From: Byssochlamys sp. IMV 00236
Lineage: Eukaryota; Ascomycota; Eurotiomycetes; Eurotiales; Thermoascaceae
Assembly (NCBI GenBank): GCA_001931875.2
Contig: MSJH02000655.1
Coordinates: forward strand, 1-64,000
Reading direction: 5' to 3'
Length of the DNA stretch: 64,000 nucleotides
Positions 19,512 through 24,669 of the stretch are shown one piece after another. Position numbers and translations under genes: made by a program. The notes under the pieces are model-generated. The model saw nothing but the letters and a program-made list of their open reading frames with translations. It was not told where the DNA came from and did not search any database. Position 1 is the first letter of the stretch. Each line of letters opens with the position of its first letter.

Positions 19512-21603
19512 ATGTCATCTTCCGTCCACTTCAAGTTCAAGTCCCAGAGAGAGCCCTCGAGGGTAACCTTTGATGGCACCGGTATCTCCGTGTTCGAATT
19601 AAAACGGGAAATCATCAGTCAGAATAGACTAGGTGATGGAACAGATTTCGAATTATCCATTTATAATGAGGATACGGGAGAAGGTAGGTTTTTACAGAAG
19701 CCCTGCTACCCTCTTTTCCCGACAACGATGCTGACCAAGCCGTGAACAGAATACGATGATGACACAACAATCATACCACGTTCTACGTCTGTCATAGCTC
19801 GCAGGTTGCCCGCAGCGAGGCCTGGAAAAGGCGGTGCAGCACGTTATGTTTCCGGGAAAATGCCAGTCAATGCGCGCAGTTCTGCTCGTACTGATATCTC
19901 GTCCTCGAGCCGTACTGCCAGCGGGACTGGTAACATAACCAGCAATGGTGTGTCGGAGCTTGATAACGCCCAGACAGAGGAGGAGAAGATCAAGGCACTT
20001 TTCAACCTTCAAGCAAATCAATGGAAAGAGCAACAACAAGAAATGGCCAAGTAAGTTGCAATAGATAGATACCGATATCCTTGGATAGCCGTGCTGACAT
20101 ATGTCGAATCCTAGTGCCACACCTGTCGCCTTTGGGCGCGGTAGAGGGAAGCCAGTGAATGTTCCCGACCATCCTCCGCCTCCAGGATATCTCTGTTACC
20201 GATGTAGAGAAAAAGGTAGGTTCCTCCATGGGACACTTATCTACTGCTATGACTAACACGCTGTTTCAGGACATTGGATCCAAGCTTGCCCTACAAATAA
20301 TGATCCTAAGTTTGATGGGAGGTATAGGGTCAAACGATCTACTGGTATCCCTCGTTCCCTCCAGACGAAAGTTGAGAAGCCGGATTCTCTCGCTCTGGAT
20401 GGTTCTAATGAGGAGATAAAGAGCTCCGGGGTCATGGTGAACGCTGACGGAGACTTTGTGATTGCTCAGCCTGACAAAGCTGCCTGGGAATTGTATCAGG
20501 AAAAGGCGAAGGCTTCGGCAGCTGCAGCCGCCGAAGCAGCCGCTGCGGAGGGCAGCAGAGAACTGCAGGCTAGGGGTCTGGAATGCCCGATTGATAAGCG
20601 GATGTTCTTAGAACCAACAAAAACCCCGTGTTGCGGGAAGACGTATTGCAATGACTGTATCACAAATGCTTTGATTGAGAGTGACTTTGTGTGTCCTGGA
20701 TGTTCTTCAGAGGGCGTGCTGCTTGATAATCTTTCTGTTGACGAGGATGCCGTCGCAAAGATCAAATCGTACGAAGCCGAAAAGGCAGAGAAAAAAGAGA
20801 AAGAAAAAGAAAAGCAACAATCGGCGCGCGACGCGCAACCGCATGAACAGTCAGAGAAAGAACCCTCTAAGTCTCCTCAGGCGAAACAAACGTCGTCCCC
20901 AAGTTTGTCAAATGGTCCTACATCAGCCCAGGCAAAGAAGAGACCTGCTGAGGATGAACCTGGCAAGCAGGATGGTTCACCGCGCACGGACTCGGTACCC
21001 ATGAAGAAACAGAAATCGGAAGATCCCAAGGCACTGGTTGACAAAACAGAGTCCCAGTCAAATAATCCCATGAATGCCTTCCCTCAGTTGCCATTTGAGC
21101 AGGCCTCTTTCGGTGGTGCTGGGTTTATGCCACCCCAGGGCATGCCGGCAATGCCCTTCGCCCCTGAGAATGGTTTTATGCCAGCAGCTATGGGCTTCAT
21201 GAACCCGATGATGTTCCCAGGTGGAAGCGGCTATATGGGTAACATGGATGCGGGATGGAATCAGATGAACGGCATGAACTTTATGTCTCAACAGAACCGG
21301 ATGTATAACGGCAACATGAATGCTCCTATGCCAAATCACCCTTTTGGGCCGAACATGTACAACGGAATGGGCGGCGGCCCAATGGGTATGGAAGCCATGG
21401 GACAGATGGGAAACCAGATGCCGCCTCAGTCAACTTTCCCACAAGGAATGGGGATGGACGCCTTCACTAATCAGCAGCGAACTGCATTTGGTGCACCCTT
21501 CTCTCGCGAGGAGGATAACGCGTATTTCCGCCAACCCGTCAACCCTCACCGGCACCAGGCAAGGCAGCGAAGAGTGCGACCAAGCGATTATCGAGAGCTG
21601 TGA
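19512..21603 (+). CDS. MPE1: Cleavage and polyadenylation factor subunit Mpe1 (RBBP6 family)
   Basis: Exons 19512..19683, 19750..20050, 20115..20215 and 20270..21603 give 635 residues. Mpe1 is a RING-type subunit of the nuclear cleavage/polyadenylation complex. An N-terminal ubiquitin-like DWNN domain (about 1-75) starts SSSVHFKFKSQREPSRVTFD. A CCHC zinc knuckle, CYRCREKGHWIQAC, lies near 190. A RING/U-box-like domain with CPIDKRMF and CCGKTYCNDC lies near 300. Next come a Lys/Glu-rich helical segment and an unusual tail of roughly 170 residues rich in Met, Gly, Asn and Pro. The tail ends with the basic segment RHQARQRRVRPSDYREL. Introns are 66, 64 and 54 nt. Confidence 0.92.
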
Positions 21604-22391: not shown

Positions 22392-23331
22392 ATGGCTCGA
22401 GAACCCAGTAGTAGTAGTATTAATCAACGACAGCAGCGCTTTGCGGCGACCATGGCCGAAGCCAGTGTTCTTGCCAGCTGCTACACCGTGAATTCTTCGG
22501 CGGTCGTCCGCGGATTCCATTACTGCACTACGAGCGGGGCCGGTAAGGATACGAGAATCCCAGCCAATTTCTTTCAATGGGATGAGACTGATCATGTCAT
22601 TGTTACCGACAGGAGCACAGTGGTATCCCTGAGGTCGCCTCGGGGTCTAAAATGCCTCCAATAAGCCCTCCCCTTAGCTGTCCGGTCGTGTCCGGCACCG
22701 AGAGCTCCTGGTCAAATAACAAATGGCCAGAGCAAAGAGGGGAGGCAGCGCATACTATCTCGGAAGAGTGTGAGAGGCTCTTCTGTGACAAGCTGTCGGC
22801 GATTTTCCTTGGTGAGAGGAGTCGTGCGAGACGAGCGTCACTAGAGATGGATGCGTATGATCGGGTCTCTCGGTCCAACCAGTCCAGAGCGAGCCACAAC
22901 CAAATCCAGAGATGGCTCGAAGTGTGGAACTATGCGTCCGATGATATCTATCGGGGCTTTGTGACACGGAACAATCCAAGAACGCTCTTCGTGTTCTTCG
23001 AAGGCAACGCGCTGGGCTACGGATTGAAATCTGGGTATGTTCTTTCTTTCTCAATATCAACGCTGATCGGTGTCGTCCAATTCACGCAAAACGAGGCTAA
23101 CTGTTCGTGTCTAGATTAATGGCTCTTTTTGAGCTGGCAAGTATGCCTGGCTTTGATTGCAGTCAGATAGTTGCATGCGTTAGTCGCTCAGTGGTTACAG
23201 CTGAGTTCGACACAGTCAGGGACCTGGGCTGGTGCGGGTTCAACCTAACAACTTTGGAGCAGACACTTGCTCTAGACAGCGCAGAACCCTCTGTGAGCAC
23301 TAGGTGGATTTTCTTGGTTGCGGAAGTCTAG
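22392..23331 (+). CDS. OAZ1: Ornithine decarboxylase antizyme, expressed by +1 frameshifting
   Basis: Exons are 22392..22542, 22613..23034 and 23115..23331. ORF0 (56 codons, starting MAREPSSSS and containing VVRGFHYCTTSGAG) ends at TGA 22630-22632. Skipping T22630 continues in the +1 frame as EVASGSKMPPISPPLS and on to the stop at 23329, giving 262 residues in all. The second frame carries the antizyme core: YRGFV, TLFVFFEG, GLMALFELA, RDLGWCGFNLTTLE and a terminal RWIFLVAEV. Antizyme binds ornithine decarboxylase monomers, sends them to the proteasome without ubiquitin and inhibits polyamine uptake; polyamines promote the frameshift. Introns are 70 and 80 nt. The first must be removed for ORF0 to meet the shift site. 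The end reads VAEV rather than the MEV I recall. Confident from motif order. Confidence 0.88.
22627..22632 (+). promoter_or_regulatory. Programmed +1 ribosomal frameshift site CCC-UGA
   Basis: In spliced ORF0 the codons read TGG TAT CCC TGA, then GGT. Decoding GAG at 22631-22633 after CCC enters the conserved antizyme frame. A sense codon followed by UGA is the standard layout of antizyme shift sites (UCC-UGA in animals and fission yeast, GCG-UGA in budding yeast). Confidence 0.85.
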
Positions 23332-23898: not shown

Positions 23899-24669
23899 AT
23901 GCCGCCAGGTAAAAAGAGAAACTCATCATCATCATCATCCATATTTCCTACCTTTCTCCTCCCATCCGCACCTTTTGGTAATAAACAACGACGGCCGAAC
24001 AGCCAAGCGGACAAAATCGAGGGTCCTAATACCAACTACCGGAATAATCATAATCATAACAGCACCAGCACCAGCACCAGGTACCTCGATGGCCATATCT
24101 CATATATCCAATGTGCTCGATGCGCAGCCGATCTCTGCCTCACGTCTCAGATCATCAGTAAAGGCTTCACGGGCCGGCATGGGCGCGCATATCTCGTCTC
24201 TGCTGATTCCGTCACGACGGCTATATCCATGACTTCATCGTCTTCGCCGACAGCATCTCTCCCCAATACGGTCACGCATAAGCCTGTTCCGCGACAGCTG
24301 GTAACCGGTGCTCATACGGTTAGTGATATCAGTTGTCTTCTCTGCGGCAGTATCTTAGGCTGGAAATACGTGGCTGCGGAAGAGGAGAGCCAGAGATATA
24401 AGGTCGGGAAGTTCATTTTAGAGACACAGCGGATTGTTACGACTTCGCGGTGGGATGGATGTGCGAATAACGACCTCGACGTCGACAGTCCGGGAAAGGC
24501 CCGAGACGATGGTGAAGATGATGAGAGTCTGCATGATAATGTGGAATTTGATAGCCAAGACGAAGATGAGTGCGAGGACTTGTTTGCTGGGGTCTGGAGC
24601 CCTGGTTTAGCAACACGCAGAAGAAGCCGCAAGTTTGACAGACGATCTACGATGTATGGCGCTGGCTAA
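23899..24669 (+). CDS. Yippee/Mis18-fold zinc-binding protein
   Basis: A single exon of 256 residues. The paired zinc-binding cysteines are visible as CARCAADLC and CLLCGSILG, with the classic Yippee sequence RQLVTGAHTVSDISC, GWKYV and YKVGKFILE between and after them. The domain spans about residues 70-190. It is interrupted by a low-complexity Ser/Thr/Pro insert of about 30 residues (MTSSSSPTASLPNTVTHK) and flanked by an N-terminal Ser/Asn-rich segment partly encoded by TCA repeats. An acidic stretch (DDGEDDESLHDN) and a basic end follow. Yippee proteins are conserved eukaryotic zinc proteins of poorly known function, related in fold to Mis18 and cereblon. The fungal role is unknown and I do not assign one. 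Confidence 0.85.
   Translation: MPPGKKRNSSSSSSIFPTFLLPSAPFGNKQRRPNSQADKIEGPNTNYRNNHNHNSTSTSTRYLDGHISYIQCARCAADLCLTSQIISKGFTGRHGRAYLVSADSVTTAISMTSSSSPTASLPNTVTHKPVPRQLVTGAHTVSDISCLLCGSILGWKYVAAEEESQRYKVGKFILETQRIVTTSRWDGCANNDLDVDSPGKARDDGEDDESLHDNVEFDSQDEDECEDLFAGVWSPGLATRRRSRKFDRRSTMYGAG

Follow-up and report, generated by a model that had tools for sequence, protein, structure and literature searches.

Here, we describe an antizyme gene in a stretch of 64,000 nucleotides (nt) of the mould Byssochlamys sp. IMV 00236 (contig MSJH02000655.1, positions 1 to 64,000, hereafter the window). An antizyme is a protein that shuts down polyamine production, and the gene described here would give the whole protein only when the ribosome passes over a single base at a stop codon. 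The gene lies on the forward strand and comprises three exons separated by two GT-AG introns (Table 1). Splicing gives a first open reading frame (ORF0) of 56 codons with the 3' end GCA CAG TGG TAT CCC TGA, the TGA lying at 22630-22632. Skipping the T of this TGA leads to GAG GTC GCC TCG from 22631, in a frame (ORF1) that remains open to the end of exon 3 and gives a conceptual shifted product of 262 amino acids. The +1 frame is already open from 22492, 23 codons ahead of the shift, meaning that ORF0 is overlapped by the antizyme ORF. Its stretch of 134 codons in exon 2 stayed open in 13 of 2000 dinucleotide shuffles. ORF0 also contains a second in-frame ATG at 22452 (context GCGACCATGG). The original prediction had joined ORF0 by removing a 70-nt intron and had followed a +1 shift at the stop through an 80-nt intron to the C terminus; our analysis reproduced both base for base, the shifted frame ending at 23331.

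Table 1 Features of the antizyme gene in the window.
Feature	Position	Strand	Basis
Exon 1, ORF0 from its ATG	22392..22542	+	Start agrees with relatives' MA(K/R)... N termini (alignment A1)
Intron 1, 70 nt, GTAAGG...GACAG, CTGAT branch-like site	22543..22612	+	GT-AG ends; relatives' models
Final 17 nt of ORF0 within exon 2, coding ..AQWYP	22613..22629	+	Sequence
GTGGTAT, 7 nt abutting the shift codon, expected place of module A	22620..22626	+	Sequence; resemblance only
Shift site CCC_TGA	22627..22632	+	Sequence; QWYP|EV junction also in P0003 and P0055
Exon 2 part of ORF1, +1 frame	22631..23034	+	Sequence, ODC_AZ match, shuffle test
First +1-frame ATG past the shift, possible reinitiation start	22652..22654	+	Sequence
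Intron 2, 80 nt, GTATGT...CTAAC...TCTAG, branch-like CTAAC	23035..23114	+	GT-AG ends
Exon 3, remainder of ORF1, stop TAG at 23329-23331	23115..23331	+	Sequence, ODC_AZ match

The identity of the encoded protein is supported by family, homology and fold. The shifted product matched the Pfam family ODC_AZ over its whole profile (positions 1-114 of 114, E = 1.6e-35, 121.8 bits against a cut-off of 24.2), and when all six frames of the assembly were searched, exons 2 and 3 each gave a match of their own (E = 2.4e-9 and 5.9e-17, respectively). At E <= 1e-3 the product matched 198 proteins; the closest among the matches listed was the Paecilomyces variotii hypothetical protein P0001 (9 member sequences), 99% identical over the shared residues. 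Structure models of two homologues matched human antizyme best and have the antizyme fold, and the assembly also contains the gene of the antizyme's target, ornithine decarboxylase (ODC). The antizyme identity originally proposed was thus borne out. ORF0 alone matched no Pfam family.

Counts over relatives refer to the best 120 of the 198 homologues and were made by text pattern on protein models, while alignments were built on chosen subsets (A1, 17 homologues plus the window product; A2, 52; A3, 53). The QWYPEV junction that follows from the shift is modelled in two of the 120, the Aspergillus nidulans entry Q9HFU6 (P0003) and a Paracoccidioides brasiliensis entry (P0055), and the other 118 are without a W-Y-P-E junction. 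The A. nidulans protein shares 57% identity with the window product over 249 columns, in an alignment that runs straight through the junction. In both entries the shift codon would presumably be CCC, as they show Pro at the site. The PEVxSG stretch is carried by 78 of the models, and 75 contain xG[IVML]PE (I in 66, V in 8, M in 1), which, read back into RNA, is the +1 reading of UGG UAU NCC UGA or of something close to it; most of these proteins do not reveal which base the shift codon begins with. The departures from I, namely M in P0053 and V in eight of the 75, would mean a GCC shift codon and a preceding UGU (Cys), respectively.

Intron 1 decides whether the shift can reach the antizyme frame. 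It is free of stops in the ORF0 frame, and 17 nt separate it from the UGA, so that its retention gives a 90-codon dead end: ORF0 then continues to the TAA at 22662-22664, where a +1 shift adds only KPSP before the next stop, as had been foreseen for the unspliced sequence. The intron is supported by relatives' models, 29 of the 120 continuing from exon 1 to exon 2 in the +1 frame over the equivalent junction. Ten of the 120 show GxGK, with Lys where the GTAAG donor would be read through, which would most simply represent a run into intron 1; these ten include P0014, whose Lys possibly comes from another join.

The analysis shows how the gene is built and how its two frames relate, and to this it adds the homologues, the fold, the entries of two relatives with a matching junction and the ODC gene of the assembly. 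On these grounds we consider it very likely that this is the ODC antizyme gene of Paecilomyces variotii, or of a very close relative, read through a +1 shift at CCC_UGA. CCC before UGA is a known, naturally occurring antizyme shift codon; a review (PMC5009743) reports it as a tiny minority, only two cases having been known when a large survey was made. Upstream of it, GUGGUAU (22620-22626) lies where a module A would be expected, codon -4 ending in G, a resemblance seen in one sequence; module A is described as the six to seven nucleotides right next to the shift site in excerpts of PMC4505036. In the proposed mechanism, splicing out intron 1 would put CCC_UGA at the end of the 56-codon ORF0, and a ribosome with UGA in its A site would then have two courses open to it, to terminate there or to move forward by one base, decode GAG and complete the 262-residue antizyme. 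By analogy with studied antizymes, polyamines would raise the rate of slipping, and the antizyme would then inactivate ODC and send it to the proteasome. Shifting in cells, polyamine control and ODC binding by the protein are thus what the known antizyme family leads us to expect.

Several observations weigh against this reading. CCC_UGA shifts significantly less than UCC_UGA in a mammalian cassette, according to the same review (PMC5009743). We found no clear 3' structure in the 121 nt from the UGA (22630-22750; z = -2.16, with 5 of 200 shuffles folding as well), the lowest z among 67 windows being -3.15, starting 50 nt downstream, and Rfam gave no match. A 3' RNA stimulator structure is not present in every antizyme. 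A PDB sequence search found no antizyme, returning three chance Rab-35 rows (E = 1.5-1.7), and a PDB search with a profile found none at E <= 1. Scans of viral and genome contig collections did not find relatives' DNA for the locus. A codon-usage score, for which 18 long open stretches served as training set, put the expected frame on top in exon 1, in four post-shift segments and in exon 3, but it also scored intron 1 in the ORF0 frame above exon 1 and did not mark the intron as non-coding; given the small margins and the score of intron 1, we gave this test no weight.

The highest-rated rival, though we regard it as very unlikely, is that alternative splicing of intron 1 yields a message in frame past the stop, as the main or a minor isoform. 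Joins that avoid the stop are used in many relatives' models, 57 of the 59 with the ORF0 motif being without the W-Y-P-E junction, and an enumeration covering GT donors (GC donors excluded) within set limits found 46 single-intron GT-AG choices in the window that would join the frames. However, the relatives' junctions disagree. An EV-like stretch follows the motif in 35 of the 59 models with 28 different strings between, at least two of which are pattern artefacts from a false match, and none was matched by pattern in the other 24; the patterns are blunt, as the class with ORF0 and no EVSG includes models bearing PEV in another form (P0045, P0066 and P0074). Such disagreement looks like gene-finder repair. 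Moreover, three acceptors alone (22730, 22739 and 22748) allow donor 22543 to bring the frames together, and each of them would delete the conserved PEVxSG...SPP stretch, while the remaining 43 choices use other donors.

Translation of ORF1 from the AUG at 22652 by reinitiation or leaky scanning, with no frameshifting, appears very unlikely. This ATG lies in the antizyme frame 20 nt past the last base of the ORF0 stop, has A at -3 and opens 199 codons. Nevertheless, Met occurs at its position in two (P0029 and P0050) of the 78 relatives' models with the stretch, and its product would be without the conserved part of ORF0 that aligns to the antizyme fold. With A at -3 and G at +4, a start codon allows little leaky scanning; both ORF0 ATGs have these bases, and leaky scanning past them should therefore be weak. 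Many relatives' models begin in the +1 frame within exon 1; such a start was rejected for the window, as this frame holds no ATG from 22492 up to the shift.

An extra 55-nt intron (22623-22677) would remove the TGA and join the frames so that no frameshift is needed, which we judge extremely unlikely. In its favor, and adding to the evidence against a frameshift, the P. variotii model P0001 reads ...GAGAQCCPVVSG..., which is exactly the window's product with this intron taken out. Yet its donor, GTATCC, agrees with GTAAGT at three of six positions, compared with five of six for each of the two introns in Table 1, and its removal would both break the A. nidulans QWYPEV junction and delete the PEVxSG stretch. 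The same model fits the earlier expectation that standard gene finders would invent an intron here. Finally, a sequencing error or decayed gene, which would by itself produce a similar broken frame, has next to no likelihood, as the break falls exactly at the point of the frame change in the entries of two relatives, neither ORF is damaged, and the P. variotii record is nearly identical over the shared residues.

Returning to the frameshifted antizyme, its ORF0 may be more than a leader. The hairpin encoded by ORF0 aligns with residues 93-101 of mammalian antizyme 1 (AZ1), which we take to lie past the shift point in mammals. We tentatively suggest that in filamentous ascomycetes the frame change falls inside the folded antizyme domain, with the ORF0 peptide (VLASCYxV...GFHYCTT) supplying the GNAT-like fold with its first beta hairpin. 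A complete domain would then come only from a shifting ribosome, and the strong conservation of ORF0 might reflect folding instead of, or beside, a nascent-peptide signal. Intron 1 might serve as a second gate, since its retention ends ORF0 at 22664, where a +1 shift leads nowhere. If the folded domain does include ORF0, regarding it as no more than a leader would need revision in these fungi.

The +1 frameshift of antizymes is a known gene switch, and our results hold little surprise in that respect; what is useful here is the failure of annotation, the use of CCC_UGA as an uncommon site and a domain that may be split by the shift. The analysis provides a consistent gene model for a polyamine regulator of a common mould and illustrates how automatic annotation fails on antizyme genes, with 2 of 120 homologue models carrying the W-Y-P-E junction. 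Because CCC_UGA is reported to be rare among antizyme shift sites, this fungal group would be a natural place to study how a useful efficiency is reached. Excerpts of PMC3432380 cite the Emericella nidulans antizyme sequence as already described (EMBO J 2000) and indicate no experiments in that organism, which makes the window gene less novel, adding a better-modelled antizyme to a known class. Literature searches for antizyme with Paracoccidioides and with Emericella nidulans found nothing.

Two neighbors flank the gene. Just downstream, at 23899-24669, is a Yippee-family gene (PF03226, E = 6.1e-16), and five of the 120 antizyme homologue models carry both ODC_AZ and Yippee domains, probably as gene-finder fusions of two neighbors. 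Upstream, a 389-codon ORF (20434-21603) has a Cys-rich CPIDK...CCGKTYC...C..C stretch that by eye is RING or U-box-like, and it had no Pfam match; the A. lentulus homologue P0034 carries a RING-finger name.

The assembly (G000; 47.4 Mb, 840 contigs) contains a single further ODC_AZ place, on contig C180, whose product is 100% identical to a Rhizopus microsporus protein and whose GC content is 0.351, compared with 0.491 in the window. It also has two ODC loci, with GC of 0.393 and 0.518, and five of its contigs carry an RNA polymerase large-subunit domain, at six places in total; a single fungus would be expected to have three such genes. The two antizymes, the two ODC loci, the polymerase domains and the division of GC into 0.35-0.39 and 0.49-0.52 (contigs C652, C180, C11 and C137) seem to indicate that the assembly mixes Paecilomyces and Rhizopus.

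The Rhizopus antizyme gene (L004:3891-4651 on C180) has an ATG at L004:3891 in the antizyme frame. Stops close that frame right before this ATG, and the ATGs in the 563 nt upstream open merely 12, 11 and 2 codons. When the first 95 residues of the 46 homologues of the Rhizopus protein were compared, a common Met start (pattern M[IL][IVL][AVT]) was present in 41, internal in one and absent in four. Judging from these sequences, the antizymes of Mucorales seem to begin at a conserved AUG with no frameshift, although an ORF0 joined by splicing from far upstream is possible. An antizyme gene without frameshifting is described for Tetrahymena in excerpts of PMC5009743. Excerpts of an earlier paper report antizymes from Zygomycota, so that an earlier survey may already cover the Mucorales case, and no paper on a Mucorales antizyme was found among the matches listed. 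This start may be of more interest to specialists than the window gene itself.

Among known systems, mammalian antizyme 1 (PDB 4zgy, 5bwa and 1zo0) provided the best structural matches to the homologue models; according to excerpts of PMC5009743, it resembles the window gene in shifting +1 where a sense codon precedes UGA and differs in its usual shift codon, UCC rather than CCC. Agaricomycete antizymes resemble the window gene as fungal antizymes in which a conserved peptide is encoded 5' of the site and a module A position, putative in the window gene, can be pointed to; in excerpts of PMC4505036, they have their own UUU_UGA site, a tested nascent-peptide signal and a 3' structure, nothing of which is clearly seen in the window gene. 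The P. brasiliensis entry has the QWYPEV junction and the MA... start region in common with the window product, to which it is 46% identical (alignment A1). The Emericella (Aspergillus) nidulans antizyme differs in its shorter N terminus (MQRF...) and in a shift codon known only as a Pro codon, and it shares with the window product the QWYP|EV junction.
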